Shown piece after piece: positions 1 through 39,622 of a stretch of 39,622 nt of DNA. Location: positions 1 to 39,622 of the IMG/VR virus record IMGVR_UViG_3300044904_000147. The stretch is one strand, 5' to 3'. The position numbers and the translations under genes were made by a program. The notes under the pieces were generated by a model. That model was not told the DNA's origin. It worked only from the letters and a program-made list of their open reading frames with translations, and did not search any database. Position 1 is the first letter of the stretch. Each line of letters starts with the position of its first letter. Source of the stretch: a virus.

Positions 1-127
1 TTATTTTTGTCACCGGACGCCATGTATTCCTGGCCGTCAAGAGTGAATCTCCAACACGCAATTCCTTGAATCGGACACTCCCGCGACGGGTTTTCAGCCG
101 CGTATTGGGAGAGAAGCACCCATCTTT
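1..127. repeat. Terminal direct repeat, left copy (circular closure)
   Basis: The first 127 bases are identical to bases 39496-39622. The repeat lies inside the 3' part of the tail-tip gene and keeps its reading frame across the joint. The length 127 equals a common assembler k-mer, so this most likely marks a circular assembly graph (circular or circularly permuted DNA) rather than a physical terminal repeat of the virion DNA. Unique genome length is 39,495 bp. Confidence 0.95.
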
Positions 128-2593
128 CCCGCCCCCGCCACCCCCGCCGCCAGAACTCCCGGTCGCTGCCGTTACGTTCACGGCCACGGCGACGCAGCCG
201 TCCGCATTGACTACCTGCACCTTTTGCTGGACGCTTTCTGGACCGGTTCCGCTGCTAACGTCGCTCTTCACAACGTGGGCGGTTCCCGTCCCGTCGTGGT
301 TTAGCGTCACGTACATTCCGAAATAATAAGTCGTGGCGCCGCTAAGGCCCGTGAATGCCGCTTGCGAATCCGCGGCTACGGTGACCGTGGAACCATCAGC
401 CGCATAGCACGTGAACGCGGCCCATGACCAGGTGATGCTGTTGGTAGTGGAGGCATAGGTGAAAGTATAGGTGCTTACATTCGAGATGCTTCCTTGATTA
501 TTAAGCGGAGTCGAGGTGGGAATCACCCCGGCAAAACTCGTCGTGCCACCCGAAGCAGTCACATTGTCCACTTCCGCGACGGCGGATGTCACGCCCGCGG
601 CGTTCACGGCGTACACCTGCACGTCATAAGCAGTGCCGTCCACGACGTTCAGAATGTAGAACTGGGTGTCTGCGCCATCCACCGTTCCGACCAGATCCCA
701 AGTTCCCGCGCCATGCGGAGAAAGATAAACTTCTACGGATCCACCGTTGGTGACGAACTGGTCCGAAGGCGCCGTCCATTGAACCAGAATGCGATCATGG
801 ATCAAACCATCGGCGCGGATGATTGCAGTGCCAGCCCCGGAACTCGCGCTCAGGCCGGTAACGGGTTGGCATACTTTCAGGTCGGGGAGCGTGGTCGGCG
901 AAGGCGAAAGCCAGGTATTCTCATCCGTCGCCGCGTTCCAGGAATAAACGCCGCTGTCGGTCTCTTTCAGTACCAGGTCCACTCCCAGAATAGGAACCTG
1001 GCCGACGTTGCTGATTGGGCTGGCGTCTTCGGAAACGTTGTATGGGCGCGTAGTGGAAGCGTCTGCCACTACGGCGGCCTGCTGCACCTCGAAAATCTTC
1101 TGGTTGAACCCGAACGGGTCGAACGTGAACATCACCGTGTCGCCTGGCTCCAATGGGAAAGCGCTCAGCTTGCAGGGTAGAGTCAGAGTGATCTGCCGCC
1201 GGATGCGCTCCAGCGTGATTTTGGCGAGACGCTGCGCGCGAATGCCATCCGTGGTGAACGGAAGCTGCATATCCTGCCAAATCTTGTTCCCGCCGTCCTG
1301 CGTCACGTAGGTGGAATTGAGGACCGGGGGAAAATTGGATTGCTGCCAATTGTTCGCCGGACTGACGAACGTTCCGGTGATGCCGTTTGCCAATTCGCGC
1401 TTGCTGACTAGCGTATCCATCTTGATCGGCCCGCGGAGGTCATCTTGCTTCAGAATGATCGTCGGGGTGCGATAGATGCCGGCCAGGATGCGCCAGGCAT
1501 CACCCGGAGGCACGATCCATCCGGCCATTGCGCTGCATAGAGAACGGAGCACATCTCCGCGGAGCTGGCCGGCATCAAAAACTCCATCGCAGGTATAACG
1601 AGCCTGCGTTGCGGGAGCGATGGCTGTGCCGCTATCGGAATGATCGTAATCGGCGTACGCAATCGAGAAAGTAAACGAGGTTGCCGTGCGCGCCAGCACG
1701 GTGACGCTGAGGCCGTTCAGAAACGTGGCGTAAGTAAAGGCGCTCAGCGCAACTTGCGCTCCGATTTTCAGGTTATTCGTCGCCGTGACGGCACCCTGCC
1801 CGGAAATGATGGTTACGTGGGTGCATGAACCGATCGTTGCGGTGTTGCCGCTGCTGATGGCCACGCTCTCATCGCAGGTGTTCGCGGCGGCCGTCGTGTA
1901 GGCGTCATCAATGGAAGCCGAAACCGCGCCGAGGCCGTACTTCGCATCCGTCAGGAAATCCCGGATGCACAGGGCCGCATTGTTGCTGTAGACCGTCGTG
2001 CTGGTGCGCGGGTCATAAAGCTTTTTCCCATGAACGTCGAACGCGATGCTGGAGGGCGCACCGTTGGGATATTTGTTGACGTCATACTTCAGGGTGAGGT
2101 GAACCTTAGCGCAGCTGCGCTGCAGGCAAGCGCTGCTCCATCCCGGAATCGCCGAGGCCAGATGCGGAAATGGCTGTGAAGTATTCGCGGGATCGCCGAG
2201 ATCGGTTTCCAGGTCGTAATAATAATAGGGGCTGCTGCTCGAAGGGCTGGCAAGATTGCCATCGAAGTACATACTGCCAATCGAGGTAATCTGGTGCCCA
2301 GCCAGCGTCAGCACCAGATGCAGGTATTCGTTTTTGGAACCGCTCAGCCCGCAGTAGGTCATCACGCCGGCGGCGCGAACGCTTCCATAGATGATCCGGC
2401 GATAAGAAACCGGCTGGCGCACGGTCATCTGGCTGGTGATGGTCGCGGCATGCGGGCGAAAGATGCGATTTAGGAGCACATCGATGCCCAGGGTAACAGC
2501 CATGAAAATCGTCACGTTTATGATGGCCACTGCCGCGGCAGCCCCAAACGCGGCTGTAAGTCCCGCCACGATGGCAATGATTACCGGGGGCAA
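1..2593 (-). CDS. Tail-tip / host-specificity protein with C-terminal Hint domain (5' part; continues at right end)
   Basis: This is the main part of a 947-aa protein at the distal end of the tail; its last residues are encoded at 39245-39495. I translated the minus strand from a TTG at 2593, preceded by GGAGA seven bases upstream and one base after the stop of the peptidase gene. The frame stays open to the window edge. Residues 3-40 are hydrophobic and Ala/Gly-rich, as in tail-hub proteins. The middle is the receptor-binding hub type expected after DUF2460, DUF2163 and NlpC/P60 genes. A fibronectin-III-like segment lies around 575-690. A glycine run precedes Cys826, the first residue of a Hint domain (CFSPNTRLKT, then GD..L.T). 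Gene order matches the tail tips of gene transfer agents and related siphophages. That the protein contacts the host is inferred from position. Confidence 0.88.
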   Translation of the reverse strand, partial: MPPVIIAIVAGLTAAFGAAAAVAIINVTIFMAVTLGIDVLLNRIFRPHAATITSQMTVRQPVSYRRIIYGSVRAAGVMTYCGLSGSKNEYLHLVLTLAGHQITSIGSMYFDGNLASPSSSSPYYYYDLETDLGDPANTSQPFPHLASAIPGWSSACLQRSCAKVHLTLKYDVNKYPNGAPSSIAFDVHGKKLYDPRTSTTVYSNNAALCIRDFLTDAKYGLGAVSASIDDAYTTAAANTCDESVAISSGNTATIGSCTHVTIISGQGAVTATNNLKIGAQVALSAFTYATFLNGLSVTVLARTATSFTFSIAYADYDHSDSGTAIAPATQARYTCDGVFDAGQLRGDVLRSLCSAMAGWIVPPGDAWRILAGIYRTPTIILKQDDLRGPIKMDTLVSKRELANGITGTFVSPANNWQQSNFPPVLNSTYVTQDGGNKIWQDMQLPFTTDGIRAQRLAKITLERIRRQITLTLPCKLSAFPLEPGDTVMFTFDPFGFNQKIFEVQQAAVVADASTTRPYNVSEDASPISNVGQVPILGVDLVLKETDSGVYSWNAATDENTWLSPSPTTLPDLKVCQPVTGLSASSGAGTAIIRADGLIHDRILVQWTAPSDQFVTNGGSVEVYLSPHGAGTWDLVGTVDGADTQFYILNVVDGTAYDVQVYAVNAAGVTSAVAEVDNVTASGGTTSFAGVIPTSTPLNNQGSISNVSTYTFTYASTTNSITWSWAAFTCYAADGSTVTVAADSQAAFTGLSGATTYYFGMYVTLNHDGTGTAHVVKSDVSSGTGPESVQQKVQVVNADGCVAVAVNVTAATGSSGGGGGGGGKDGCFSPNTRLKTRRGSVRFKELRVGDSLLTARNTWRPVTKI

Positions 2594-7850: not shown

Positions 7851-7853
7851 CTC

Positions 7854-8267
7854 TTAGCTTGCTTCCACGAACATCAGCGTGAAGTCCAGCGCCACGCGGA
7901 ATGCGTAGCCGTGCGCGCCCACCTCATAGGGCAAATCAATGTCGTTGTTCAGGATCGCCGTGCTGACCACCGTTCCGTCGTCCAGCGTCCCGGAAAAGTC
8001 CCTGAGCGCCGCCATCACGGCGCGCGCCAGGCTCCGCGCATCGAGCTGGTCAATTGAGGAAATACAATCAACCTGTATGCGCCGCTGTTGAAGCGATGCC
8101 GTGGAGTCCAGGTCCACGATCGGCGGGTTGGCGACCGTATGGATTACCAATGCCGGAAAGCTCGCGCCCTTGGGCAATTGCGAAAACCAAACGCTGGTGC
8201 CAACCAGCGCGCCGACCGCCGAGCTCGGGTCCGTCAAAAGCTGGTACAAGCCCTGCTCGAAAGGCAT
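7854..8267 (-). CDS. DUF3168-like tail completion protein
   Basis: A 137-aa protein that matches tail-terminator/completion proteins of the DUF3168 type: FEQGLYQLLTD at the N-terminus, FPALVIHTV around residue 40, RRIQVDCIS around 60 and RVALDFTLMF near the C-terminus. These proteins form the ring that closes the tail and joins it to the head. The ATG at 8267 overlaps the stop of the gp10-like gene (TGATG); a longer in-frame start at 8315 would overlap that gene by 49 bp and was not chosen. Confidence 0.8.
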   Translation of the reverse strand: MPFEQGLYQLLTDPSSAVGALVGTSVWFSQLPKGASFPALVIHTVANPPIVDLDSTASLQQRRIQVDCISSIDQLDARSLARAVMAALRDFSGTLDDGTVVSTAILNNDIDLPYEVGAHGYAFRVALDFTLMFVEAS

Positions 8268-16572: not shown

Positions 16573-18666
16573 TCACGCAATCGCCATTTCTGTGTGAGAC
16601 GCCCACGCGGTGTGGACATCATCGATACTCTTGGGCATCAGCTTATGAAGCGTCACAAAGTCCTTACGAATCTGTGTATAACTTCCTTGTGGTCCAACTA
16701 GATAGCGGTCGTCATGGTGCGGAAGGATGCCGCTCTTAGCTAACACCTGGCCAATGTAATCATCCTCCCACAACGTCTCGTATGATTCGGGCGAGTCAAC
16801 ATCGCCGTACACGGCCCGCATTGCCTTGCTTGACAACCAGTATCCGCTGCCACCCTGGCAGTACATGCGTCCGCGTGCCCACCCACTATAATCGTAAGCC
16901 TCGAATCCGCTGGCCATCAATTGATCTGGGCGCAGATACACATCGTCGTCAGTCTTGAACAGGAACTGATAGCCGCGCTCAAGGGCGAACTTGATCAGTG
17001 CCCTTGTCTTGTAGATCAGGCTGTTGTAATCATCGGGGCAATGCAGTGAGACGACGCCCGCCTCGCCAGACGTATCGCCGTCACCAACAAAGTGAAGCAC
17101 GTCCATTCCGGATGGCAGGTTCTGCATCCACGTTCTGCGCTGGGACCGCCGCAATTCCAGGTTGCGCCTTTGGTGGCAAGACAGAACGCCCACCAGCACT
17201 CTGACTTTTGAAGGATTAACTGGCTCGGTCAATCTAATCGCTTCATGGGCTTCTTGGCTGCTCGGTCCGATCCTGTCCGCGTACAATTCTCGGATTATCT
17301 TCGGCGTGCAGGCATGCAGCGTCACGAACTCATGGTTTTGTGGCAGTAAATGCACTGGCGCGTAATGTTCTTCATAGCCTGGAAGAAAACGCCTGTCGCC
17401 CACGCGTTTTAACCCGTGCTTGCGGATTGTGCTGCCCACCCACAGATCCTCGGCGTAGTGACTAACCGTATCATGGACAATCGCTTCCATCGCGCGCTTC
17501 GACAGCCAGTAGCCTGGGCCACCCGTGGAATAGTTTCCGTTGTCATTGGACAAAATACCGTCACCACGCGGCGACCATCCGAGCTGGTCGCAATTGCGAA
17601 AATCGGTGCGCATCAATCGATCGACATAAACGAATGTGTCCGAATCACATTTAAACAGCCATTCATAGCCGCGCTCCAACGCCCAGCGGCAGATGCCCTG
17701 CATTTTGTGCGTCAGGCCGTCGTAGTTGTCAGCGACTTCCAGAAATACTTCGTCGGACAGTGGATCGCGTTTTGCCCCGCGCCCATAGAAAAATCGAAAG
17801 TCCACGCCAGGGAGGGCCTTAACATCCTTGGCCCAAGTTTCACGGACTGCTTCATACGGATTTTCCTGCCGGTTGGCGAAAGCGTTATCGTGAACATTTA
17901 GTTTTCCCACCAGCAAAGGATGCTTGCCGTACTCGAATTTCCAGCATGCCGGCACGGCGAAGAGGATTTTCTCTTGCTTTATCGGCTCGGCTGTAGCGTA
18001 CTGGATTCTTTCGCAGGCCCGCGACCTGCCATTTCCGATGTGCTTGACGAGGCGCTCCACGCCAAACGTTCCCACGTTGAATCCCAACTCTAGATATTTG
18101 CGTGAAATCGCGGCCTCATCGGTGCAGCCGTTATGGCCATAACCCACGATTGCGCCGTAGCTGCCGCCAATCAATTTGTAATCGGATAGCCGTCGCAGCG
18201 ATGGATTCGTGTTGAAGCCGCCCCAACCTTCCGCGCGCCAGTTTGGCTGCTGAATTGGAAACGGATACTTATCGTCGCGGATAATCGGATGCCCGTTGCA
18301 ATCATTTCCGCGCAGACTGACCGTGCTGATCTTCGGATATTTGTTCAGAATTTCCACGGAAGGATTGATGAAGGGTCCGCGCAGGGTTTCCCAATCGTCC
18401 TCTCCATGAAAGACCAGCTCGGTCTTGACGAGCTGATAGGCACGATCCATCGCGTAGATCATTCCCCGGCGCGGACCGTTTAGCCATGTCACTTTCCCGA
18501 GTTCCGGCATCTTGGAAATGAATGCGGGCTTATCAGAGGGTGAATCCTCGGAAATAATCGTTTCCACGGGGAACACGTCGGCATGCTGGATGAAACTCTT
18601 CAGCGTTGTTTCCAGTAGATCGAATCTCTGGCAGGAGATGATCACCAGCGTGTAAACGATGGGCAT
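16573..18666 (-). CDS. Tri-modular glycosyltransferase
   Basis: A 697-aa protein with three consecutive GT-A-like glycosyltransferase modules. Module 1 (1-228) is GT2-like: TLVIISCQRFDLLETTL, then a GEDDW acidic motif at 88-92. Module 2 (233-460) is GT31/galactosyltransferase-like: ERGYEWLFKCDSDTFVY with DxD at 341-343, GYWLS and EDLWVG at 406-411. Module 3 (487-690) repeats it: ALERGYQFLFKTDDDVYL, SGYWLS and EDDYIG. DxD motifs bind metal and the sugar nucleotide. It follows the methyltransferase gene by 1 bp. Possible targets are the virion, the host surface, or a nucleotide; none can be chosen from sequence. Phages rarely encode three such modules in one gene. Confidence 0.9.
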   Translation of the reverse strand: MPIVYTLVIISCQRFDLLETTLKSFIQHADVFPVETIISEDSPSDKPAFISKMPELGKVTWLNGPRRGMIYAMDRAYQLVKTELVFHGEDDWETLRGPFINPSVEILNKYPKISTVSLRGNDCNGHPIIRDDKYPFPIQQPNWRAEGWGGFNTNPSLRRLSDYKLIGGSYGAIVGYGHNGCTDEAAISRKYLELGFNVGTFGVERLVKHIGNGRSRACERIQYATAEPIKQEKILFAVPACWKFEYGKHPLLVGKLNVHDNAFANRQENPYEAVRETWAKDVKALPGVDFRFFYGRGAKRDPLSDEVFLEVADNYDGLTHKMQGICRWALERGYEWLFKCDSDTFVYVDRLMRTDFRNCDQLGWSPRGDGILSNDNGNYSTGGPGYWLSKRAMEAIVHDTVSHYAEDLWVGSTIRKHGLKRVGDRRFLPGYEEHYAPVHLLPQNHEFVTLHACTPKIIRELYADRIGPSSQEAHEAIRLTEPVNPSKVRVLVGVLSCHQRRNLELRRSQRRTWMQNLPSGMDVLHFVGDGDTSGEAGVVSLHCPDDYNSLIYKTRALIKFALERGYQFLFKTDDDVYLRPDQLMASGFEAYDYSGWARGRMYCQGGSGYWLSSKAMRAVYGDVDSPESYETLWEDDYIGQVLAKSGILPHHDDRYLVGPQGSYTQIRKDFVTLHKLMPKSIDDVHTAWASHTEMAIA

Positions 18667-18667
18667 T

Positions 18668-19378
18668 TCAGTTTGTGAAAACCAGTCCTGGCTGCTGAAT
18701 GCTGAAATCGACCTCTGTTAGACGCAGATCGAGGCAATGCTTATAAAGTTTTCTGACTTTTGAAATCGTCGCGGCTGCTTCCGCGCAATCCGCAATCCAC
18801 TTGGCATGCAGGCTGACGTACAGCGTCGGCCTGTACTTCTCGAAAAAGTTGATGTCCCGCAGGGCCAGCGCTTCCGCGCCCTCGATGTCCATCTTGACGA
18901 ATAGAGGATCGTTGGGCCGGTAGAAATCATCGCGGGCCACGTTTTCCTCGAAAAACGATGTCAACGTGCAGCAGTTGACCCCAAACTGGTAAAAGTTCTC
19001 GCTGATGCGCGTGCAAGAATGCCCCAACAATCCGGTCGAATCGACTCCCAGTTTGGCGATGCCATCATGGTCAAGAATGGCGCGTTCGTAGACCTTGACG
19101 TTCTCGATTCCGTTCGCTTCGATGTTGCGCTTCAACCATCTGAAAGCAATCGGATCAGGCTCGATCGCGTAACAGTGTTTCGCCAGTTCGCTGGCGTAAA
19201 GGACGGTCGGGCCGATCCATGCGCCTACATCGAGGTAATTGGTGGCCGGCGTCAAAAAGCTATCGAAAATCCGGAATGTTTCCGGCTCCCACTCTCCGGA
19301 TTGCACGGACTCCCAATACTCCCTGCCCTCTTCCCGCACAACAACCTCAAATTCATGCGTTCTATTGCGAACGTTCAC
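18668..19378 (-). CDS. FkbM-type SAM-dependent methyltransferase
   Basis: A 236-aa protein. The GTG at 19378 overlaps the stop of the HNH gene (GTGA), and an ATG at 19435 lies inside that gene, so the GTG is preferred. Motif I LDVGAWIG (about 49-56) and IEPDP (about 72-76) form the AdoMet pocket. Later come LFVKMDIEGAE, a diagnostic FkbM segment, and a LYVSLH strand. FkbM enzymes methylate sugars or small molecules, so coupling with the glycosyltransferase suggests a methylated glycan. The substrate cannot be read from sequence. Confidence 0.9.
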   Translation of the reverse strand: MNVRNRTHEFEVVVREEGREYWESVQSGEWEPETFRIFDSFLTPATNYLDVGAWIGPTVLYASELAKHCYAIEPDPIAFRWLKRNIEANGIENVKVYERAILDHDGIAKLGVDSTGLLGHSCTRISENFYQFGVNCCTLTSFFEENVARDDFYRPNDPLFVKMDIEGAEALALRDINFFEKYRPTLYVSLHAKWIADCAEAAATISKVRKLYKHCLDLRLTEVDFSIQQPGLVFTN

Positions 19379-19773
19379 CGCGGCACTCCCGAGAGATGTT
19401 CCCTTGCCGTGCGGCGATCGTGGCATTCTTTGCACAAACCCGTCAGATTGGACTCATCGAAGAAATCGCCGCCCCGACCAATCCACAAGCGCGCATCAAT
19501 CTGGTGATCCGCAACGGTGGAAGGCTGCTTCCCGCATTCCGTGCAGGTCGGGTAACGGAACAGCACGTTCAAGCGCACCCAATGCCATCGCTGCGTATGG
19601 TACAGTTTGCGAATCGGATCAGCGCTGCGTTCCTGGCTGTACCGCTGGTCCAAACCCGCTTGATGCGCGGCGCAATATCTCGCCGGAGTCGTCTGCCGGC
19701 AACCAGGATAGCTGCACGGCCGGGGAGTTTTTGGGGTTCCCCGCCGGTGCATTTCATTCTCTACCTGGAGCAT
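19375..19773 (-). CDS. HNH endonuclease
   Basis: A 132-aa protein. A first Cys cluster (CSYPGCRQTTPARYCAAH) precedes the HNH core: CTECG, then VADHQIDARLWIGRGGDFFDESNL and GLCKECHDRRT. The pattern CxxC...DH...N...CxxCH is complete. HNH proteins near terminase genes in siphophages often assist terminase; the gene is two genes upstream of terS here. It is coupled to the methyltransferase gene by a GTGA overlap. Two starts are possible (19773 or 19752). Confidence 0.88.
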   Translation of the reverse strand: MLQVENEMHRRGTPKTPRPCSYPGCRQTTPARYCAAHQAGLDQRYSQERSADPIRKLYHTQRWHWVRLNVLFRYPTCTECGKQPSTVADHQIDARLWIGRGGDFFDESNLTGLCKECHDRRTAREHLSGVPR

Positions 19774-29747: not shown

Positions 29748-30485
29748 CTATTTTGACCCGAGAACGAAGGTGAGCTGTGCGGAGACCGCCAGCCCATTGG
29801 GATGCGGGCCAAACCCGGGAGCATTGAACCATTCGACCCGCGGGCCAAAGCTGAACCTGCCGGTGCCGAGCGGATCGTAGTCGAAGCCGCCGCCGGCCAG
29901 CGCGCTATAATGCTGCTGCGATGGCCCCGTTGCCGGGACATTGCGAACAATTCCCAGCGCCGCATGGACGTAGGGCTGAAATGTGTTTGGGGGAATCGTG
30001 GTCTTGGCGACGTATTTGTTCAGCAGCGAATCCAGGTTGTACCGAATGCCTCCGAGATAGGCTTGCAGGTCGTTCGCCGGTGCGAGGATGTTATCGCTCT
30101 GCAAAACGAGATTCTTGGTAAGATTGAAAGTGCCAACCGCATCCACGCCGGGCACGGTCTGTCCGCCAATGCGGACCGCGATTGCCTGCGTTGAAACCGT
30201 GAAAAGCGGAATCGGTGCTGGCTCCGGGGGAGGCGTGACGGTCTGCGCCATCGCCAGGGCGGGTGCGAGCAGGAATAAGAGAAGCATTTTGGCGACGTAG
30301 GCGCTTGTGACGGGTGTGCCGTCGGGATTGTAGTAGTGACTGATGAGCCCCGTGACCGCCTGGAGCACGGTCAGGGCGCAGAGCACGATCGGCTGATACT
30401 TTGTCGGAACCATGCCGGATGCGAAGTTGAGAACCTGACAGATGGACGCGAGAACCTGTACCACGACTTGCCAAGAAAACTTCAT
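29748..30485 (-). CDS. Holin-like TM module fused to a beta-barrel-like module
   Basis: A 245-aa protein with AAGGAGA before the ATG at 30485. Residues 1-60 have holin-like helices (VVVQVLASICQVLNFASG, then QPIVLCALTVLQAVTGLI, then HYYNPDGTP). A second signal-like stretch begins at residue 67 (MLLLFLLAPALAMA), followed by Gln. Residues about 80-245 alternate strands and end GLAVSAQLTFVLGSK, like a small outer-membrane barrel. Either it is a fusion or two start sites give two products. The second start has no good Shine-Dalgarno. Confidence 0.72.
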   Translation of the reverse strand: MKFSWQVVVQVLASICQVLNFASGMVPTKYQPIVLCALTVLQAVTGLISHYYNPDGTPVTSAYVAKMLLLFLLAPALAMAQTVTPPPEPAPIPLFTVSTQAIAVRIGGQTVPGVDAVGTFNLTKNLVLQSDNILAPANDLQAYLGGIRYNLDSLLNKYVAKTTIPPNTFQPYVHAALGIVRNVPATGPSQQHYSALAGGGFDYDPLGTGRFSFGPRVEWFNAPGFGPHPNGLAVSAQLTFVLGSK

Positions 30486-30500
30486 TATTTATGTCTCCTT

Positions 30501-31001
30501 TTAGTTTGAGAATCCATACGTCTGATCGACCCAGTCCCAGACGGCCTGAATGCCGCCGTCCGTCAAAATCTGCAGCAGGTTGTCGTCGGGGTTCGCTGGC
30601 AACTCCTGCAGGTAAAGGTGCGGCGCGTCGGGGAATGTGCGCCACTCCGCGCCTTCCGCAAGGCCGCAAGTCAGCGCCTGCGCGAGAAAAGTTTTCCACC
30701 GTGCATCGCCAGTGAACCAGTCAGGCTGCCAGAGTATCGGGCCAGGCAGGTCCGGCACGCAATCCACGGCGAGCCCATAGTTGTGCATGGAGGCCCCGGG
30801 CTTCGCGTTCGTGACGATGGGCCCGGGCGCCGTGCGGCCTCTCGCATAGAGCGCCGCCTGCTCCGGCCAGGTGCGGAGCGCTTGGGTAACGCGCAGGTGG
30901 ATGGCGGGCGTTTGGGCGGTCAGGAGTTGATCGAGCTGCAAGATGCGGCGGCGCAGTTCCGGGTGAACGGTCTGCAGCCGCGCGAGGCTAATTGCGTCCA
31001 T
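30501..31001 (-). CDS. Endolysin, M15-type peptidase
   Basis: A 166-aa peptidoglycan hydrolase. Zinc ligands His73 and Asp80 lie in SMHNYGLAVD and His128 in DAPHLYL, the M15/VanY and L-alanyl-D-glutamate endopeptidase pattern. The N-terminal half holds a helical RTWPEQAALYARGR motif common to Ply500-like enzymes. It lacks a signal peptide, so a holin is needed for export. The ATG at 31001 lies in the end of the coiled-coil membrane gene. The true substrate bond is inferred from the family. Confidence 0.88.
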   Translation of the reverse strand: MDAISLARLQTVHPELRRRILQLDQLLTAQTPAIHLRVTQALRTWPEQAALYARGRTAPGPIVTNAKPGASMHNYGLAVDCVPDLPGPILWQPDWFTGDARWKTFLAQALTCGLAEGAEWRTFPDAPHLYLQELPANPDDNLLQILTDGGIQAVWDWVDQTYGFSN

Positions 31002-31356
31002 CAATCTTTTCGATTTTGGCGCCCCTGCGAAGCGCCAGGCCCAGGATTTCCTTGGTGATGATCAGCAGGACCATGCCGATGAACATCCACAGAAGCTGCT
31101 CGTGTTTCTGCACCGTCACCTCGAGCACGGTCAGCCGATTCGTGATGATAATGTAGTCCGCCTCTTGTTTCTCCGCATGGACATCGTGCCAGAGTTCCAA
31201 TTTGGCGAGATTGTCCTCGATCTGTTTCAGCCTCTGGCCGTTGACGGCGATTTCGCTTTGATCGGAGTTCATCTGCGATTGCTGCGCATAGAGAAAAACA
31301 ACCGGCACCAAACAGAATAGAAGTATGGCAGCAAGATAATGTGGACGCTTGATCAC
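30988..31356 (-). CDS. Membrane/coiled-coil lysis protein (122 aa)
   Basis: An N-terminal signal-like or TM segment (ILLFCLVPVVFLYA) is followed by a helical coiled-coil-like stretch (about 35-85) and a second TM (LLWMFIGMVLLIITKEIL, about 88-106). Two TMs with a coiled coil between them resembles spanin- or holin-related proteins upstream of the endolysin. The stop overlaps the endolysin start. Exact class uncertain. Confidence 0.72.
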   Translation of the reverse strand: MIKRPHYLAAILLFCLVPVVFLYAQQSQMNSDQSEIAVNGQRLKQIEDNLAKLELWHDVHAEKQEADYIIITNRLTVLEVTVQKHEQLLWMFIGMVLLIITKEILGLALRRGAKIEKIDGRN

Positions 31357-31362: not shown

Positions 31363-31737
31363 TTATCCTCCGCAGGGTAACTGGTCCGTGGTAACGTGCG
31401 ATTCGCTCAGCGCCACGTTGGCGTGCTTGGGGCAGATGAACGTGTCCGTCACGATGAGGCTTTCAGCCATGGCAACCGGCACGCCGCGGCGCACCGCCAA
31501 AACATCGGCTCCTGGCTCGCTTTCCGTGATTGCCTCCGAGGTTTCGATCGCGGAGCGCGCGGCGGAGACTTTATCCGCTGTCGCGGCCGATTCGGAAATG
31601 GCGTTGGAGGGATTGCGATGCACGGTAACGCAGCCCACCTGATCCTGCGGAGAACTGGCTTCTGTCAGCGCGACAGTCAGCGTCTGTGGGCAGCCCGCCA
31701 GAAAGAGCACGATCAAAAGCGGAAAGGTGAATTTCAT
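31363..31737 (-). CDS. Lipoprotein carrying ESxxxxD repeats
   Basis: A 124-aa lipoprotein. The lipobox LFLAGC puts Cys16 at the lipidated position. About five repeats follow, of the type AISESAATADKV, AITESEPGADVL, AMAESLIVTDTF, ALSESHVTTDQL, and match the repeats of the 784-aa protein. ATG at 31737 overlaps the previous stop (ATGA). It should sit at the outer or inner membrane of the host; role unknown. Confidence 0.82.
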   Translation of the reverse strand: MKFTFPLLIVLFLAGCPQTLTVALTEASSPQDQVGCVTVHRNPSNAISESAATADKVSAARSAIETSEAITESEPGADVLAVRRGVPVAMAESLIVTDTFICPKHANVALSESHVTTDQLPCGG

Positions 31738-33695
31738 GGTTTACACGCCCTCGCCGCGTGGCTCGTCCCAATCGTCGCGGTGGTGGTCAGGTTTTCATTG
31801 CAATGTGCCGGCCCGAGCTCGGTGAGCGATGCGCTAGTGGTCAACGATTCGGCCAAAGTGGCCGTCCAGGCTTGCGACCCGCTGCTCGCGGGATAACAGG
31901 TCGCCTCGTTGAACGTGGTGACGTTGGTCGTCCCGTTCGACGTGACGCTGTTGAAGCAGTCCATCGCGGGGATGCTGTTCGCGTAGCCGCCTACGCCCGC
32001 GATGTTCCCCCCTGTGACATCGGGGCCAATGGGAGGCCACGGCTGAGAACCCCACCAACTAGGCTTGCTGGTGAAAAAAAATGAAACGGGCAAAGAGTGC
32101 GCGCCAGAGTTCCATTGGAATGTCGCGGAAATGGGCAGATACACCCCGTCAATGAATGTCGTAGGATAAACCGTGTTGGGTGAAATCGTGGCATCATCTG
32201 AGCCGTTATATCCGATGCGGAGATACACGTTGTTCCCGAAACCGGACGCCGGGGAAACTCGGGAGTCTACATACGGGATCGAATTGCCGTGCGTGCTCCC
32301 GAGGATGTCGCCAACCACGTTGTAGTAATCGTTGTAGTCGTTGATGTCTATGCCGAAGTCATTGCCAATACCGTCTTCCCAGGCGGCACTCCCTGGCACA
32401 AGCGCCCCGCGAGCATCCAGCGGTGGAAGACGCTTGCTAACACCGGAGACGTAGTTTCGGAACAGCGTCATGTGGCTGCTCGATCCCCAGTAATCGTCCC
32501 ACAGCATCAAGCTCACGACGTTGCCTTCATAAAGCTGCATCATCGGATGCACGCCGTGCGTGTCCATCGAGGGCTCTTGCCACAGGTTCGCGGTGTTGTA
32601 GTTGTCCATTGCGTAATTGTACGCGATCACGTTCCCCGAGGGTCCACGCTCGCTCATCACGCTGGCGTGCTGCCGCCAGAAGATGTTGTTGACGATGAGG
32701 CTCGCGCTGGTCTTGTAAGCTAGATTGAGTTGCTGGTCGTTGGAGCCAGGACCGTGCTGGAAGGCATCGTGGAAGAAACTGTTGCGGACCTCGCAATGGA
32801 GTGAATACTGCAAGAACATGTGCGCGTTGTCGGCAAAATCGCTCTCCACGCCCTTGACCCAACTGGCGTAGGCCCCGATCATGTTTATCGTCGCAACATT
32901 GCCATTAGAATGGGTATTGTTCTGAGAAATTTTCAGGTCCTCGAAGCCCGAATTGGTCGCCACTGTGGACGTGAAACGGAAGATGTAGGAAGGGTTCGCG
33001 TAGGCGATATAGAGGGGCGGCTCGATGGTCAGCGTCGTTCCAGCCACGTTCGTCACACGCACTACTTCACCGGAGTTGTGGTCATTCGCGGTTTCACTGT
33101 TGCAGAAGTTGCAGTTCCCTCCGTGCCCAACCTGTGTCATGTAACTCAGGTCAGGTTGGGTAATCATCATCAAAGTCCCAACGCTGATGCCCGAGGCGCT
33201 GGCGACGGTGATGGTGTTCGCATACTGCGCGCCACCCGTGAAGGTCGTTGAGTTGCCAGACGCGAAAGGATAGCTCACTCCAGACAGTCCGTTTGCAAAA
33301 GAGATAGGCGTAGAGCTAGTGCCCATATTGTTCAATTGTGTCTGGTTCGCGCCCATTCCGCGCAAAACGCAGTTATTTGGAATAAGCAGGCCGGTGTTGA
33401 TGAGAAACACGCCTGCGCCGAGCAAGACATAGTGATTCGTCCCGCAGGCGTTCAAGGCGGTCTGAATACCAGAGGTTGCATCGGAAACGCCGTTGCCGTA
33501 GGTAGCGGCGAGAATGGTCGAGCCAGATTGCGTCCAACTCCCGCTGGGGATGCCTCCAGGCACGCCAGCAGCAACCCAATTCGTCGTGGTCCCCGCCCAA
33601 TCCACCGCCGTGCCTGCAGGCACATAACCTGACCAGAGTTGAGCGTGGGCGGCAATTGGAAACAAGAGCAGTGCGAGTGCAAGTAGTTTCCTCAT
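31734..33695 (-). CDS. Exported right-handed beta-helix protein (pectate-lyase-like), repeat tail
   Basis: A 653-aa protein. The N-terminus MRKLLALALLLFPIAAHA is a Sec signal peptide, cleaved before Gln. Then comes DATSGIQTALNACGTNHYV and short repeated Asn/Gly strands (NYAMDNYNTANL, FRNYVSGVS), typical of the right-handed beta-helix found in pectate lyases and tailspikes. The last about 40 residues change to LAESLTTSASLTELG and NENLTTTATIG, the ESLxxS repeat also used in the 784-aa protein. It may be a secreted polysaccharide depolymerase; catalytic residues cannot be named. The stop overlaps the lipoprotein start. Confidence 0.85.
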   Translation of the reverse strand: MRKLLALALLLFPIAAHAQLWSGYVPAGTAVDWAGTTTNWVAAGVPGGIPSGSWTQSGSTILAATYGNGVSDATSGIQTALNACGTNHYVLLGAGVFLINTGLLIPNNCVLRGMGANQTQLNNMGTSSTPISFANGLSGVSYPFASGNSTTFTGGAQYANTITVASASGISVGTLMMITQPDLSYMTQVGHGGNCNFCNSETANDHNSGEVVRVTNVAGTTLTIEPPLYIAYANPSYIFRFTSTVATNSGFEDLKISQNNTHSNGNVATINMIGAYASWVKGVESDFADNAHMFLQYSLHCEVRNSFFHDAFQHGPGSNDQQLNLAYKTSASLIVNNIFWRQHASVMSERGPSGNVIAYNYAMDNYNTANLWQEPSMDTHGVHPMMQLYEGNVVSLMLWDDYWGSSSHMTLFRNYVSGVSKRLPPLDARGALVPGSAAWEDGIGNDFGIDINDYNDYYNVVGDILGSTHGNSIPYVDSRVSPASGFGNNVYLRIGYNGSDDATISPNTVYPTTFIDGVYLPISATFQWNSGAHSLPVSFFFTSKPSWWGSQPWPPIGPDVTGGNIAGVGGYANSIPAMDCFNSVTSNGTTNVTTFNEATCYPASSGSQAWTATLAESLTTSASLTELGPAHCNENLTTTATIGTSHAARACKP

Positions 33696-34396
33696 GGATG
33701 AATCGCCACTCCTATCATGGAGTATGGGTCACTGGTCACGCTGTCTGTCCCTGTGGGCGTGATTGACCCGGAAGCCGTCTGACGGAAATATTCCGCGCGA
33801 CCTTCGTTGTCGCCGTCCGGGGAAACCCACGCTATGTTGGTTCCGGCAGCGTTCGTTCCGTTGTCCGTAAGGCTATAAGCCACCACAAAATCTTTGAAAT
33901 TCGTGCTCAAGGCCGGCGTGGTCATGTTGTTGGGGCTGGTGCCAGAGCTACAAGCCTGAGCGCATTGCGCGAACACATCTACCGCAGAGGCCCCATTTAA
34001 TTGATACACGGTGACTGATTCCGCACCCGTGCTCGTAATCGTGTCGGTACCCGCACTCCCAAGACAACTGAAGCAGACAAAAATCTTGACGAATCCCGAA
34101 TTTGACGAGCCGTTCTGCCCGTTTCCCGAATCCACGAAAGTATTTCCCGCAGGACTGTCCGTGGGCGTGGCAACGCCCGTAGTTGTCTTGCTCACAAAGA
34201 CGACTAGCGCGTTTCCAGCGGTCACGGACGGAAGAGTTGTTGAAGTCCCTGTAGTTCCATTGTGACTGATGAGCGTAGGAGCCGCAGCGCCGCCGCCCGC
34301 CGAGGCGGGCATCCCGGGACCGGGAATCGCCGGACCCTGCGCCATCGGCAGCAGGGCGAGCGCCCAGCTCAGAATAAAAGTGGCAAGGGTTTTCAT
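33692..34396 (-). CDS. Exported beta-rich protein (234 aa)
   Basis: Signal peptide MKTLATFILSWALALLPM. A Pro/Gly/Ala linker follows, then a beta-rich domain: TTLPSVTAGNALVVFVS, then GNTFVDSGNGQNG, then SVTVYQLNGASAVDV. It resembles carbohydrate-binding or adhesin-like domains of phage and bacterial surface proteins, without a certain family. ATG at 34396 overlaps the previous stop (ATGA); longer upstream in-frame starts run through a basic region and were rejected. Confidence 0.8.
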   Translation of the reverse strand: MKTLATFILSWALALLPMAQGPAIPGPGMPASAGGGAAAPTLISHNGTTGTSTTLPSVTAGNALVVFVSKTTTGVATPTDSPAGNTFVDSGNGQNGSSNSGFVKIFVCFSCLGSAGTDTITSTGAESVTVYQLNGASAVDVFAQCAQACSSGTSPNNMTTPALSTNFKDFVVAYSLTDNGTNAAGTNIAWVSPDGDNEGRAEYFRQTASGSITPTGTDSVTSDPYSMIGVAIHP

Positions 34397-35055
34397 CGCG
34401 CCACTCTCCAATTCAGCGTTACCGCGCCGGGCGTAATCGAGGCGCTGGTGTTGTTGCAGACAAGGAAATTGACATTGCCAGCCGTGGGATAGGCGATGAT
34501 CGTCAGCATTCCTGTGGTCAAGGGCACATAGCCGGTCACCGCCTGAGGATCGGCGTTGAAGGAAACGACGATGGCATCCGTGGCCAGTACGCCCGTCGCG
34601 GTAGCCGTCACCACGCTGGCGCAAGTGGCCGAGGAGATCGCGCTGGTGCCCATCGCCGAGGCCCCGCTGGCAATGGTCGTGGTGGCCGCACCGATAGCGA
34701 AGTAGTTGGAATTATCCGTCCAAACTTGGAACGTCGTCCCAACAGCCACCGGCATGACCAGGCTGCTCGCGGAGCCGTTCAGATTTAGGCCGTTGGGCGA
34801 AATGGTCACCGCGCCCGCGCCGATGGATTCCACCAGGACCATCCAAACGGGTGATTGCGGCGTGGCGGGAAGCGTCACGGTGCAGGCCGTCGAGCAGTTC
34901 ATCACGAACAGCTTGCCGGTATCCGCAGCCAAGGGCGAAAAACCAGCCGTTTTTACGACGGCGCCATTCGCGGGAACGACGCATTGCGGCACCGCTTGTA
35001 GGGGCAACAGCAGCGCCAGAGTTGCTGAAATCAGAAATGCTAGAGTCTTCTTCAT
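34393..35055 (-). CDS. Exported beta-rich protein (220 aa)
   Basis: Signal peptide MKKTLAFLISATLALLLPLQA with Cys and Val following. The mature part has TVTLPATPQSPVWMVL, then GVLATDAIVVSFNADP and ITPGAVTLNWRVAR near the end. The last segment, a Thr/Ala-rich beta fold with NADP and LNW, recurs in exported or tail-associated phage proteins; the exact family is uncertain. Shine-Dalgarno GAGGAAAA lies close before the ATG at 35055. Confidence 0.78.
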   Translation of the reverse strand: MKKTLAFLISATLALLLPLQAVPQCVVPANGAVVKTAGFSPLAADTGKLFVMNCSTACTVTLPATPQSPVWMVLVESIGAGAVTISPNGLNLNGSASSLVMPVAVGTTFQVWTDNSNYFAIGAATTTIASGASAMGTSAISSATCASVVTATATGVLATDAIVVSFNADPQAVTGYVPLTTGMLTIIAYPTAGNVNFLVCNNTSASITPGAVTLNWRVAR

Positions 35056-35065
35056 GGTGTTTTCC

Positions 35066-37420
35066 TCACTGAGATTCGATGATCAAAACCCTTCTGCCGC
35101 CCGTGGTGTAAATGATGCCGTCCAAATAGACCAGGCTTTCGTTGATGCTCACGACGTGCGGAGCCGTGATGGAGATAGTGCCGAACGTCGGATGGTTCTC
35201 ATACAGCGTGACGAACAGATGATGCGCGCCGCCCGTGGATAGCGAGTCGGAGACGTTCAAAGATTCCGAGAGCGCAATGCTCGGGCCGCGAGCTGCCGTG
35301 AGCATATCCGATTCGGAAGCGGTCTCCGTAACTGCCCTCGATGTTGTCCAGTTTGCCTGCAGGCTATCCGAGACCGCATGGCCGTCCATAATTCCGATAG
35401 AAACATGCGTGGGCGATTGCACGCCAAGCTGATCCTGCGTGCCCAGGGGTTCAGTAATTCCCGCGATATGCGCCGCCACCGCCGCAATGCTATCGCTTGT
35501 GGTTAGCGATTCGGCGATGTCCTTCAGCGCATCGTAGGTCACCAACAGGGATCCGGTCGCGGAGAGCGTTTCCGTGAGCGCGCCGTGCATGGCGCGCGAT
35601 TTGCCGAGACCATCCGAAACGGTAGTTGCGTCCACTAGGTTGATCGAATAACCGCTGGGCTTGGCCGCGGAGAGGACATCGGAAATGGCCAGCGTCTCGG
35701 ACAGAACCTTGCCCACGGAGCGCTTCACGCTGTCCGATTCCGTCAAGTTATCTGTCAGGGCCGATATTCCGGACCGCACCGCGCCCACCGAGTCAGCCAA
35801 GGAAAGCGCTTCGAGAATCGCTCCACAGCGCGTTACCAGCATGCTGTCGGAAGTGGCCTGCGTCTCAAGTAGGTTGGCATGGTGTTGAGGGAAATCAGAA
35901 AGCAGATCGGTGATCACCATGATTTCCGTCAGGTTGATATGATTCGGCTTTCCGGCATCCAGGCCGTCAACCGTCGTGCGGGATTCCGTGATACCAGCCA
36001 CATGGGCGGAAGAGGCCGTCAAAGCGGAACTTGCGGTCAAAGTTTCGCTCACAGCGCCAATCTTGTTTCCGGCGATATTCGCCGCTACCGAATCCGGCCC
36101 AACGTGCGTTTCGATCATTCCCTCCGCCGCACAGTGGGCTGAAGCCACCGACGAACTTGTTCCGTTGGTTTCCGTCAGATTTCCTACCCTGCTGCTGGTG
36201 GTGGAATTAGAAACCGAATCGGAACCGACGTGCGTTTCCGTCAAGCCCGCCGCAGCACAATGGGAAGCGGCCACCGATGGCGTCGTGGTCAAAGATTCAG
36301 ACATGGAAGCGGACTGCGCGTGCGTTGTGGATGCGGAAACCGAGTCGGAGCCGGAGAGCGTTTCCGTCGCTGCGCCATGCATGGCCCTGATTCCTGCCGC
36401 CGAATCAGACGCCGAAACCGTAACGGTCATGCCGACAAAGGCCGCGCGGAGCGCGGTGATCGACGGAGTCGTAGTATTCGTTTCCGTGAGATGTCCCACT
36501 GCTGCATGAACTTCGGCCACGCTATCCGATTCGCTCAGCGTCACCGTCAGATTGCCGACCTGGCCGGAACCTTTTGAGGCCGCTACAGAATCGGAACCGA
36601 CTTGCGTTTCGATGATTCCCGCGGCGCGGCACGTTGCTGTGGCGGCAGTGCCCGTGCAACCAGGCGTCGTCTCGGAAAGGCCGGACGTTCCGCCAGCAAG
36701 GCGCCCTACGGTAACCGCCAAAGTATCGCTCGCGGGGCCCACGGATTCCGCCGTGGGTGTGCCCAGATAGGCCCAGGCGATGGTCTCATTCGTCTGGACC
36801 CAGGACGCTGGATTCGAGCCGTCTGTGGTGCCGTCGTATCCAGCCGTGGTGGTGTAGGTGGAACCGGCCATAGTTCCAGTCGGGCAGCCCGAGGTTGCGG
36901 AGCAGTTTTCCAAGAACAGTTTGATGACCAGGCGATCTCCCGCGGAGAAAGCCGTGGATGTGGGCGTGCCAGTCCAATTGTGGACCGTAGTTAGGGTGGC
37001 GGTAAGCTCCCCGGCCATGTTGGCGGTCGAGAATGTAGCGCCTTCGCTGCCACCCGAGTATTTGTAGAGACGGCAGCGAAATGCGGCATTGGCCGAGGTG
37101 GATGATTCGCCACCATATATGTTGCAGGTAACCGTGCCGGAAAGCGTGAAGCCGGTTCTGATCGGAGCGGTGATCCATGCGACGGTGGACCCTCCGCTGG
37201 TCTTGGTCATCTGAATGTCCGTGCCGCTTGCCACCGTTTTGGTCACGGCCGTGGTGCTCGAAGGGCCGAGCAACAAGTCGGCCTTCAAATAGCCGGAAAC
37301 GTCCGAAGCGGCGTCGTGCAGGCGGATCTTCGTCTGCGCGCGCAACGATGGCGCAAGCAATAGCATCGCCACCAAGACCGCGAGCGTAGCTGTACGCGCC
37401 GCTGTTCGGAGTGCATTCAC
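35066..37420 (-). CDS. Exported giant repeat protein (ESLxxSDS repeats)
   Basis: A 784-aa protein. The signal peptide MNALRTAARTATLAVLVAML with SLRA before Gln is clear. Residues 30-225 are a beta-rich domain (SGYLKADLLLGPSSTT, then VAWITAPIRTGFTLSG). Residues 225-784 hold about 27 units of 18-24 residues of form [LIV]-T-E-[ST]-L-x-x-S-D-S-[LV]; many units keep E at position 3 and D about 6 later. The units are diverged, so the array is old. Such arrays are known from large surface proteins of some archaea and environmental bacteria; a fibre-like solenoid is likely. It may form a stalk that binds cells, glycans or phage. Confidence 0.87.
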   Translation of the reverse strand: MNALRTAARTATLAVLVAMLLLAPSLRAQTKIRLHDAASDVSGYLKADLLLGPSSTTAVTKTVASGTDIQMTKTSGGSTVAWITAPIRTGFTLSGTVTCNIYGGESSTSANAAFRCRLYKYSGGSEGATFSTANMAGELTATLTTVHNWTGTPTSTAFSAGDRLVIKLFLENCSATSGCPTGTMAGSTYTTTAGYDGTTDGSNPASWVQTNETIAWAYLGTPTAESVGPASDTLAVTVGRLAGGTSGLSETTPGCTGTAATATCRAAGIIETQVGSDSVAASKGSGQVGNLTVTLSESDSVAEVHAAVGHLTETNTTTPSITALRAAFVGMTVTVSASDSAAGIRAMHGAATETLSGSDSVSASTTHAQSASMSESLTTTPSVAASHCAAAGLTETHVGSDSVSNSTTSSRVGNLTETNGTSSSVASAHCAAEGMIETHVGPDSVAANIAGNKIGAVSETLTASSALTASSAHVAGITESRTTVDGLDAGKPNHINLTEIMVITDLLSDFPQHHANLLETQATSDSMLVTRCGAILEALSLADSVGAVRSGISALTDNLTESDSVKRSVGKVLSETLAISDVLSAAKPSGYSINLVDATTVSDGLGKSRAMHGALTETLSATGSLLVTYDALKDIAESLTTSDSIAAVAAHIAGITEPLGTQDQLGVQSPTHVSIGIMDGHAVSDSLQANWTTSRAVTETASESDMLTAARGPSIALSESLNVSDSLSTGGAHHLFVTLYENHPTFGTISITAPHVVSINESLVYLDGIIYTTGGRRVLIIESQ
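35069..36748 (-). repeat. Tandem ESLxxSDS protein repeat array
   Basis: About 27 diverged units of roughly 60-70 bp each, in frame, make up most of the 784-aa protein. Typical units begin LTETLSGSDSVSA, ALSESLNVSDSLS or IAESLTTSDSIAA. The same unit is found about five times in the lipoprotein (31363-31737) and twice at the end of the beta-helix protein (31734-33695). Confidence 0.85.
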
Positions 37421-37448
37421 GCAATTGGACCTCTACTGCGTTGGGAGA

Positions 37449-38063
37449 TTAGTAGTTGATGGTCCAGGTCACAGTGAGGGTGTCGCCGTTGTTGACGGTG
37501 ACTTGCGTGTAGGTGTTCTCAAAGCACAGCGTTCCGGTAGAGCCAGCGTTCAGCAGCCCGGCTTTCTGGCTCGCTTGCGTTCCGGTGGCGCTGAAGACCT
37601 TCTGCACGGTGAACGAAGCCGTGCCACCGGTATGGGCGTAAGTGCCCTGGGCGCGGCTGAGCCCCGCCGTGGCGATTTCAGACGCAACCACCGTATCGCC
37701 CGCAGCCGGCGCGCCGGCATCGTTCGACAATGCGATGTAGTTGCAGGTCGCCGGAGGAGCGGAGGTATTGCCCATCACGGAGGATTGCCAATCACCGCCC
37801 GCCGTGGTGCGCAGGTTGTGTTCCTTGTGGGTATAGAACACCGTCGAGGGATCGAGAGCGCAGGAAACCGCATCGCCAAACCTCTGGCAATGCCGCGCCA
37901 CGATTTCGACGATGTTGACGCCAGGAATGTGCTCATCGATGGAGGCAGGACGCCCAGCAACCACGCTGGTATTCGCCTTCGTGACGAGGTGCTCGGCTTG
38001 CGGTGACCACCCCAGGAACGACAATAGGGTGGCGAGTACAACTACTGCAGATCGAAAGAACAT
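37449..38063 (-). CDS. Exported beta-rich protein (204 aa)
   Basis: Signal peptide MFFRSAVVVLATLLSFLGW followed by SPQAEH. The N-terminal third is unusual (VNIVEIVARHCQRFGDAV, then STVFYTHKEHNL). The last two thirds have NYIALSNDAGAPAAGDTVV, then TYAHTGGTASFTVQKVFSA and TVTWTINY, which resembles an immunoglobulin-like or decoration domain seen in phage virion proteins. Such a fold can attach to capsids or tails, yet here it carries an export signal. Confidence 0.78.
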   Translation of the reverse strand: MFFRSAVVVLATLLSFLGWSPQAEHLVTKANTSVVAGRPASIDEHIPGVNIVEIVARHCQRFGDAVSCALDPSTVFYTHKEHNLRTTAGGDWQSSVMGNTSAPPATCNYIALSNDAGAPAAGDTVVASEIATAGLSRAQGTYAHTGGTASFTVQKVFSATGTQASQKAGLLNAGSTGTLCFENTYTQVTVNNGDTLTVTWTINY

Positions 38064-38079
38064 GCTGTGATTCTCCTTT

Positions 38080-38895
38080 TTAGTTGAGTAGATACTCCGC
38101 GTGAATGCGAACGACTGATGCGCCGTTGGCCGTAATCACCAACAACGCTACCGGGGAAAGGCTCGGAACGTAGGAATTGGCGATCGCCGTGGTTGAGCCC
38201 GTCGAGGTGGTACAAGTCAACGGCGAGGACAGCACCTGCGTTCCGGTTGTGTTCGGCGTGGATTCCTGCCGAATGTCAAAATTTACCGTCGCCGTGCCGT
38301 TGTCCGTGGAACAGGACAAGCGCGTGAGCGTGAGCGGATTCTTGGGTTTCCATTGGAACTTACCCGCATCGGCGGCCGTGGGATTTTCCAGATTTATGGT
38401 TACGGTGCCCAAATTGTCGGATTTGCAGAGCCATCCGGTTCCGGTCCAGCGCAGCACTTGCGGAGCCGCGCAGCCAGGGGGAGGAAGTAGCTGCGAAGCC
38501 GGAATGACAATGGCCGGAGTGGGTGAGGAAAGCGCGCGCACCTGCAGGAGATTGACGGGGCTGGAGGATTGCGGGACGATCCAGATTTCCTTGAAGTTTT
38601 TGTTGTCCGTCAAATAGTTAGCGGTATAGCTTGTTCCCGCGGGCGTGCCGTTTACGTTCGGTATCAGGTCGACCGAAAACTGCCCGTTTAGCGGAGTTAG
38701 CGTGATGCGGCTTCCGGTGACGACCACGGTTCCATCCGCTCCCGTGAAGGTTTGATTGGCGACGAGCACAATCGTGACGTTGGTCAGGGCAGCGCCGCTC
38801 GGGTCGTAGAGGATGTCCGCAACGGTCGTTTTCGTCTGCGCAAACAGGCCCAGGGGCAAGAGCAGAGCCAAAAAGAATGGCGCGAAGCGTTTCAT
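38080..38895 (-). CDS. Exported protein (271 aa)
   Basis: ATG at 38895 with GAGGTGA before it gives a clear signal peptide (MKRFAPFFLALLLPLGLFAQ). A longer in-frame ORF up to 39171 would put this signal inside a basic low-complexity stretch and was rejected. The mature part holds an SP-linked fold TVADILYDPSGAALTNVTIVLV, which looks like a carboxypeptidase regulatory or Ig-like strand pair, and ends with a beta-rich segment of coat-like type. First gene of the exported block. Confidence 0.8.
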   Translation of the reverse strand: MKRFAPFFLALLLPLGLFAQTKTTVADILYDPSGAALTNVTIVLVANQTFTGADGTVVVTGSRITLTPLNGQFSVDLIPNVNGTPAGTSYTANYLTDNKNFKEIWIVPQSSSPVNLLQVRALSSPTPAIVIPASQLLPPPGCAAPQVLRWTGTGWLCKSDNLGTVTINLENPTAADAGKFQWKPKNPLTLTRLSCSTDNGTATVNFDIRQESTPNTTGTQVLSSPLTCTTSTGSTTAIANSYVPSLSPVALLVITANGASVVRIHAEYLLN

Positions 38896-38906: not shown

Positions 38907-39242
38907 TCATTGCAGGTTGGGCTTCAAAAATGGCAGGCCGAGTTTCTGGTAGACCGCCGTAGCGAACGCTGACGTAACCGCCGCTGGTCCCACCACAATT
39001 CCCACCTTCGCGATGGCCGCAACGGCGGCAGCCGGCACGGGAGTCGTTGTGTCGTGGACCCCGGGAAGGACAATGAAACCCTGTGCGGTAATCTCCGCGG
39101 TGGCATCGTTTGGATCGGCCCAGGACGCGGGATAAGCGACCCCGATCGGAGCGTCGTTGCAGACATGCCATCCGGAGATGGTCCTGACGTTCTGCATTTT
39201 CGCGGGGTCCACGTTATTTGTGAAGAAGAAGATTTGCGTCAT
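38907..39242 (-). CDS. Hypothetical protein between tail tip and exported block (111 aa)
   Basis: ATG at 39242, three bases after the tail-tip stop. Contains FFFTNNVDPAKMQNV, then ISGWHVCNDAPIG, then FIVLPGVHDTTTP. It has no signal peptide, unlike the genes that follow. By position it may be the last tail-tip or baseplate component. No family recognised. Confidence 0.72.
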   Translation of the reverse strand: MTQIFFFTNNVDPAKMQNVRTISGWHVCNDAPIGVAYPASWADPNDATAEITAQGFIVLPGVHDTTTPVPAAAVAAIAKVGIVVGPAAVTSAFATAVYQKLGLPFLKPNLQ

Positions 39243-39244: not shown

Positions 39245-39622
39245 CTAAGTTTGTAGATTGTGAACAATCGCTCCGTTTGCCAGCGTGTAGCTGTGCTCCG
39301 TGTCCGGGCGAGTCCCGTCATCGTCAGCTTCCGTTTCAAGATGGGCATTCCAAATCTCGCCCGTGTAATGGACTTCGGAATACTTGTCCAAGCTCAGGAC
39401 GGGCAGCCACAATTCCCTATTCAAGAAAAGGTGGGTCAGAGTGACCAGTTCACCATCAGCCATGTCCAACGCCGGGCCATCATATGGGCGGCGGGTTATT
39501 TTTGTCACCGGACGCCATGTATTCCTGGCCGTCAAGAGTGAATCTCCAACACGCAATTCCTTGAATCGGACACTCCCGCGACGGGTTTTCAGCCGCGTAT
39601 TGGGAGAGAAGCACCCATCTTT
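39245..39622 (-). CDS. Tail-tip protein, C-terminal part with Hint domain (continues at left edge)
   Basis: The 3' end of the 947-aa tail-tip gene; bases 39496-39622 repeat 1-127. In whole-protein numbering the Hint domain runs from Cys826 (CFSPNTR) to Asn944. It has GDSLLTAR after the first strand, the block-B-like LTH at 884-886, and ends VHN followed by only three residues, LQT. Cys at the start and His-Asn at the end are the catalytic ends of inteins and Hint proteins. With so short a tail, splicing has little to join, so autocleavage or anchoring is more likely. A start at 39556 would only be an internal TTG. Confidence 0.87.
   Translation of the reverse strand, partial: KDGCFSPNTRLKTRRGSVRFKELRVGDSLLTARNTWRPVTKITRRPYDGPALDMADGELVTLTHLFLNRELWLPVLSLDKYSEVHYTGEIWNAHLETEADDDGTRPDTEHSYTLANGAIVHNLQT
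39496..39622. repeat. Terminal direct repeat, right copy
   Basis: Exact copy of bases 1-127. See the left copy for the interpretation. Confidence 0.95.

Follow-up and report, generated by a model that had tools for sequence, protein, structure and literature searches.

An exported tailspike- and fibre-like gene cassette predicted between the tail-tip gene and the endolysin of a soil phage

The fibres and spikes of tailed phages are held to remain in the cytoplasm until lysis, and the tailspike depolymerases LKA1 gp49, phi297 gp61, K64-1 S2-4 and KP34p57 are parts of the virion. The subject of this report is a run of seven consecutive genes, at positions 31,363 to 38,895 of the soil phage record IMGVR_UViG_3300044904_000147 (39,622 nt, called the window here), that combines tailspike-like and fibre-like domains with predicted export signals. 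Exported proteins of this type are already known from bacteria. WceF of Pantoea stewartii is an exported tailspike-like beta-helix enzyme encoded in an exopolysaccharide (EPS) cluster (PMC7949094), and members of the Bdellovibrio MAT fibre superfamily are phage-fibre-like, surface-displayed proteins in which a signal peptide is directly followed by a conserved ~130-aa beta-rich domain (PMC10769870). In phage lambda, the exported outer-membrane barrel protein Lom is expressed in lysogens and encoded between J and the side-fibre genes (PMC12309495); Lom is a single barrel protein, whereas the window holds a seven-gene run with tailspike and fibre domains. The target proteins of phage diversity-generating retroelements found in a Bacteroides study are stated there to be without signal peptides (PMC6199706). 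No description of signal-peptide-bearing fibre or tailspike cassettes in tailed phages was found in the open literature.

The genome is circular and complete, at ~39.5 kb, because the record carries an exact 127-bp direct terminal repeat at its ends, and its gene set reads as that of a lambda-like temperate siphophage. Its minus strand encodes terminase, portal, protease, major head protein, connectors, major tail protein, tape measure, distal tail protein, tail proteins, DUF6950 and the tail-tip protein J, whose open reading frame (ORF) spans the circular junction marked by the repeat and ends in a C-terminal Hint_2 domain. After J follow one small gene, the seven cassette genes, a membrane protein, an M15/VanY endolysin, a holin-like/barrel-like ORF and, farther along, an integrase. 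The seven ORFs are indeed consecutive, as the first-pass annotation had claimed, and successive gaps measure 16, 28, 10, -4, -4 and -4 bases, three of them being 4-base overlaps. This spacing leaves little room for separate promoters or terminators between most genes; promoter- and terminator-like sites occurred near chance level in a scan, with no strong one within the run. Judged from this layout, the genes form part of one predicted late operon between J and the endolysin. An assembly chimera is rejected in view of the intact late-gene layout, the terminal repeat and equivalent cassettes elsewhere.

Export signals were called with a rule-based caller (n-region, h-region, and a -3/-1 site or lipobox) on fixed starts. 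Among the 50 window genes scanned, the rule flags six of the seven cassette genes and 30988-31356, and none of the other 42, so that signals are confined to the region from J to lysis. The rule flags 1.2% of shuffled proteins, and a chance run is rejected, none of 20,000 shuffles of the gene order having given one as long. Five N-termini are clear Sec signals with a signal peptidase I (SPI) site, one is a lipobox (SPII), and one is hydrophobic without a clear cleavage site. The earlier observation of seven export signals in a row thus holds, six of them being n/h/c-region signals by rule, with one exception: the start of the 37449-38063 product (MFFRSAVVVLATLLSFLGWSPQAEH) is signal-like and hydrophobic but has no good cleavage site. 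The run may extend, by sequence, to the products of 30988-31356 and 29748-30485. An ESLxTSDSL-type repeat is common to the 784-aa protein (35066-37420), the C-terminal extension of the beta-helix protein (ESLTTS) and the lipoprotein (31363-31737), and is possibly a shared interaction or anchoring motif. Neither the 784-aa repeat protein nor the 220-aa beta-rich protein (34393-35055) had a match among known phages by tblastn.

An AlphaFold2 model of the beta-helix protein built from 22 viral sequences reached pLDDT 74 and pTM 0.83; a two-sequence alignment gave no usable model (pLDDT 28). The nearest folds in the PDB by Foldseek are the tailspikes and depolymerases LKA1 gp49, phi297 gp61, K64-1 S2-4, AP22 Gp54 and KP34p57, followed by secreted alginate epimerases and RbmB. 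The family profile alone finds PDB entry 4ru4 at E=3.8e-7. The pectate-lyase-like superfamily PF12708 is matched by six of ten relatives in the family alignment (E<=0.01), while the window protein itself has no Pfam match. The fold class is firm, and the protein is most likely a polysaccharide lyase-, hydrolase- or epimerase-type enzyme directed at host EPS. It resembles the tailspike depolymerases in its right-handed beta-helix, which is related to the solved tailspikes, in its late tail-region gene and in its likely activity on polysaccharide. Unlike those virion components, it starts with a signal peptide of the Sec type, and the closest relatives known from cells lie in EPS clusters. A first genome scan with the profile returned no matches; chromosomal homologues were found in 14 of 151 Terriglobia genomes. 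In the contexts examined, these lie within EPS clusters, beside genes for EPS amidotransferase-like, O-ligase/polymerase-like, MOP flippase, PEP-CTERM FemAB-like and chain-length determinant proteins. The Terriglobia homologues resemble WceF in being bacterial, exported and part of an EPS cluster, but WceF is Tat-exported and chromosomal, whereas the window protein is of the Sec type, phage-encoded and part of a late cassette.

Export-tagged relatives recur in other phages. A scan of viral contigs with the beta-helix profile gave 57 loci, and an export signal is present in 43 of the 47 examined. Signal-bearing genes occupy 39/84 (46%) of the three upstream slots next to these homologues versus 32/347 (9%) of far slots; among the neighbours without signals are matches, a few each, to families of tail fibre, virion structural, head morphogenesis, portal, terminase and endolysin proteins. 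When the fibre, J or the terminase was used as a single query against viral sequences, few or no useful relatives emerged. IMG/VR contig 3300038451_000172 (L002) differs in layout from the window, running terminase, exported set, portal/MuF. Its export-tagged beta-helix protein is 83% identical to that of the window in the best segment, its exported fibre (2047 aa) has an N-terminus 40% identical to the 38080-38895 product, and two more signal-bearing genes flank this pair. The N-domain of the L002 fibre had no match among known phages by tblastn. Between the window and L002 the signal-peptide regions have diverged in sequence and retained their character. Loss of signals in relatives, which the first-pass annotation had named as a point against secretion, was looked for, and the signals are kept; its view that the phage encodes a group of secreted proteins is supported by this and by the recurrence of export-tagged cassettes in unrelated phages. 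Its expectation that the genes stay together fares less evenly: the cassette habit is kept and the exact seven-gene order is not, with L002 retaining only the beta-helix, the fibre N-domain and similar neighbours. In a Terriglobus albidus prophage the order is J, a transmembrane protein and endolysin, then export-tagged beta-helix-like and GDSL-like proteins.

Two cultured podoviruses of Tunturiibacter have a comparable cassette in the corresponding slot. Tunturi_1 is a plaque-forming podovirus of Tunturiibacter psychrotolerans, in which the signal rule finds clear signals on ORF12, 13, 14, 16 and 17 and a hydrophobic start on ORF15, all between a tail protein and the endolysin. The podovirus Tunturi_2 has the same gene order, with annotations such as "tail fiber", "pectin lyase" and "virion structural protein"; "tail spike" also appears among the annotations of the two phages. 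As in the window, the genes (ORF12-17) follow one another directly, five to six of them opening with an export signal or a hydrophobic stretch and one being of beta-helix/pectin-lyase type; unlike the window phage, both are podoviruses, and their individual proteins are different. No gene was flagged in the structural regions examined in Tunturi_3, 4 and 5. The paper describing these phages reports recombinase or integrase genes only for Tunturi 3-5, and signal peptides and virion proteomics are unmentioned in it.

The fibre-like protein encoded at 38080-38895 carries a fibre N-domain, here called A3. A3 occurs in 140 of 299 Terriglobia versus 0 of 149 Vicinamibacteria, the control class, and in prophages it stands at the head of large fibre-like proteins downstream of J. 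A clear signal lies directly upstream of A3 in 43 of 56 proteins in the fetched loci, and most others have a hydrophobic N-terminus. The first-pass annotation had reasoned that fibres lack signals, so that these could not be fibre proteins; the presence of fibre and tailspike domains together with export signals contradicts this. Mature A3 proteins have an even number of cysteines in 41 of 48 cases (p=6e-7, a value inflated by relatedness) versus 187 of 375 signal-less controls, which is consistent with disulfides and an oxidising compartment. A PDB search with A3 gave nothing significant. A distant relationship to the N-domain of signal-less Tunturi_3 tail proteins is probable but weakly supported (hhalign E=5e-4, probability only 31%; intermediates match both). 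The Bdellovibrio MATs are alike in layout only and are encoded by a predatory bacterium. In Bryobacter/Solibacter-type genomes (L245, L246, L263), a stand-alone exported chromosomal A3 protein of ~450 aa lies beside nadD, with a dus-like neighbour in L245 and L246. In a prophage-like cluster on a chromosome (L217), a gene for a short A3 protein with a signal-like start (7258-7932) directly precedes a tail gene resembling J.

A separate phage-derived cluster is retained in 17 of 20 sampled Acidobacteriaceae chromosomes (L144/L145, that is G006 C1 ~373-390 kb; L295-L310, L312, and also L138/L139, L142, L146/L147 and L223). It comprises a capsid-like gene (323 aa), a head-tail adaptor, three small genes, a signal-bearing fibre of 1.1-1.6 kaa, DUF3037, a portal and a 776-aa protein; in G006 the fibre has a GDSL domain and the cluster lies near purE/K. 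It is possibly a gene-transfer-agent-like or domesticated element.

We infer that the seven genes constitute a late, Sec-exported tailspike/fibre cassette acting on EPS outside the cytoplasm around lysis, a reading that has roughly an even chance of being correct. The cassette occupies the slot of the structural/lysis operon that in lambdoid phages holds lom and the side-fibre genes, a layout that suggests late co-expression with the tail and lysis genes. Its products would be routed through Sec to the periplasm, the outer membrane (the lipoprotein) or the outside. There the beta-helix protein would act on host EPS around lysis, the fibre and beta-rich proteins would probably assist it by adhesion or by binding EPS, and some of these proteins may be anchored by the lipoprotein. 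Cutting the EPS coat at this time could help progeny to escape and reach neighbouring cells. This model accounts for the homology to EPS loci, the tailspike fold, the signals and the occurrence in plaque-forming phages. Several points weigh against it. It is not obvious how a long trimeric fibre would cross the outer membrane ahead of lysis. Foldseek TM-scores of the beta-helix model are modest (~0.4), and the even-cysteine bias is absent from its family (18/33). Signal calls are rule-based, hence cleavage sites are approximate. The putative host, a member of the Terriglobia (Acidobacteriota), is inferred, and the window terminase is only ~38% identical to that of the nearest Terriglobia prophage. 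Many acidobacterial prophages with J have no such cassette (L216, L217, L218, L221, L222), and it is therefore not essential.

The main rival holds that the proteins are true tail fibres or spikes. They would fold in the periplasm, acquire disulfides there and be attached to virions once the periplasmic and cytoplasmic contents mix at lysis. This is doubtful, with an appreciable minority chance. The tail-fibre slot, the tail spike, tail fiber and virion structural annotations in Tunturi_1/2, the long fibre bodies in L002 and L144, the even cysteine counts of A3 proteins and the probable kinship of A3 with signal-less Tunturi_3 tail proteins all agree with it. However, no tailed-phage precedent for Sec-exported tail fibres was found, assembly after release would be limited by dilution, A3 proteins also stand free on host chromosomes, and L387 retains signal-less tail proteins adjoining its exported cassette. 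The general proposition that Acidobacteriota phages export fibres and spikes via Sec, mature them with periplasmic disulfides and, at lysis, fit them to virions outside the cytoplasm, a route not described for tailed phages, appears rather improbable.

The first-pass annotation had suggested, beside an extracellular matrix during lysis, lysogen immunity or conversion. On that reading surface proteins of the lysogen block superinfection or alter the cell surface in the manner of lambda Lom and Bor. The integrase of the window phage, the lipoprotein and possible barrel protein, and the occupation of the same slot in lambda by lom, whose exported barrel product is made in lysogens (PMC12309495), speak for such a role. 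As the main function it is nevertheless unlikely, since the genes between J and the endolysin overlap or abut and no promoter or terminator stands out among them, the enzyme content is tailspike-like, and an analogous cassette occurs in two plaque-forming phages for which no integrase is reported; of the readings considered, lysogenic conversion agrees least with the tight packing of the operon and with the cassette of the Tunturi phages. Finally, the signals could be non-functional baggage: hosts have exported proteins with beta-helix and A3 domains too, and host exoprotein domains might have recombined into fibre genes, the hydrophobic N-termini then being tolerated or being cleaved while the protein is not exported. 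Such a history is very improbable, given that 43 of 47 viral beta-helix homologues keep a signal at ~30-80% identity, as do unrelated neighbouring genes, and that signal peptides diverge in sequence while keeping their character.

Coordinates of the cassette and of the adjoining late genes are collected in Table 1. The 30988-31356 product is probably, from its sequence features, an inner-membrane lysis-associated protein rather than an exported one, and the 29748-30485 product has no Pfam match. The Terriglobus albidus prophage (L215, 7447-9885) likewise has a holin-like part continuous with an exported protein. Adjoining the terminase genes, positions 16573-19435 of the window encode a galactosyltransferase-domain protein (697 aa) and an FkbM methyltransferase, possible glycan-modifying genes.

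Table 1. Predicted genes from J to the holin-like ORF, in minus-strand order (SP, signal peptide; TM, transmembrane segment)
Feature	Coordinates	Strand	Remarks
J-type central tail protein	2..2593	-	phrog_31, phrog_5616; no signal peptide by rule
J C-terminal part with Hint_2 domain	39245..39622	-	rest of ORF at 2-2593
Small protein, no signal, between J and cassette	38907..39242	-	
Exported fibre-like protein, 271 aa	38080..38895	-	SP MKRFAPFFLALLLPLGLFA, cleavage before Q, then ~130-aa A3 domain
Probable exported protein, 204 aa	37449..38063	-	phrog_5417 in the C-terminal half (E=6e-4), shared with Chlorobiaceae phage CV-1-33
Exported repeat protein, 784 aa, LxESLxxSDSL-type repeats	35066..37420	-	SP ends LRA before Q; GTG start
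Exported beta-rich protein, 220 aa, fibre-tip-like C-terminus	34393..35055	-	likeness by eye to C-terminus of L146 fibre
Exported beta-rich protein	33692..34396	-	start MKTLATF at 34396; in L002, a similar signal-bearing gene precedes the beta-helix gene
Exported right-handed beta-helix protein, 653 aa	31734..33695	-	SP ends AHA before Q; tailspike/polysaccharide-lyase-like fold
Lipoprotein, 124 aa	31363..31737	-	clear lipobox LAGC; two ESxxTxD repeats also in 784-aa protein
Hydrophobic N-terminus, coil, C-terminal TM	30988..31356	-	flagged by signal rule
M15/VanY-type endolysin	30501..31004	-	
Holin-like N-terminus, then in-frame signal peptide and outer-membrane-barrel-like domain	29748..30485	-	signal peptide MLLLFLLAPALAMAQ (Met at 30287); predicted from sequence

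Annotation pipelines name genes of this kind "tail fiber" or "virion structural" and the export signal is overlooked. The recurrence of a signal-bearing cassette in phages of a soil phylum that ranks among the most abundant would mean one of two things: secretion of EPS-active enzymes and adhesins ahead of lysis is common among phages, or fibre assembly can involve the periplasm. Both readings are testable in the cultured phages Tunturi_1 and Tunturi_2. Phages, it appears, can export surface-acting proteins from the cell before it lyses.

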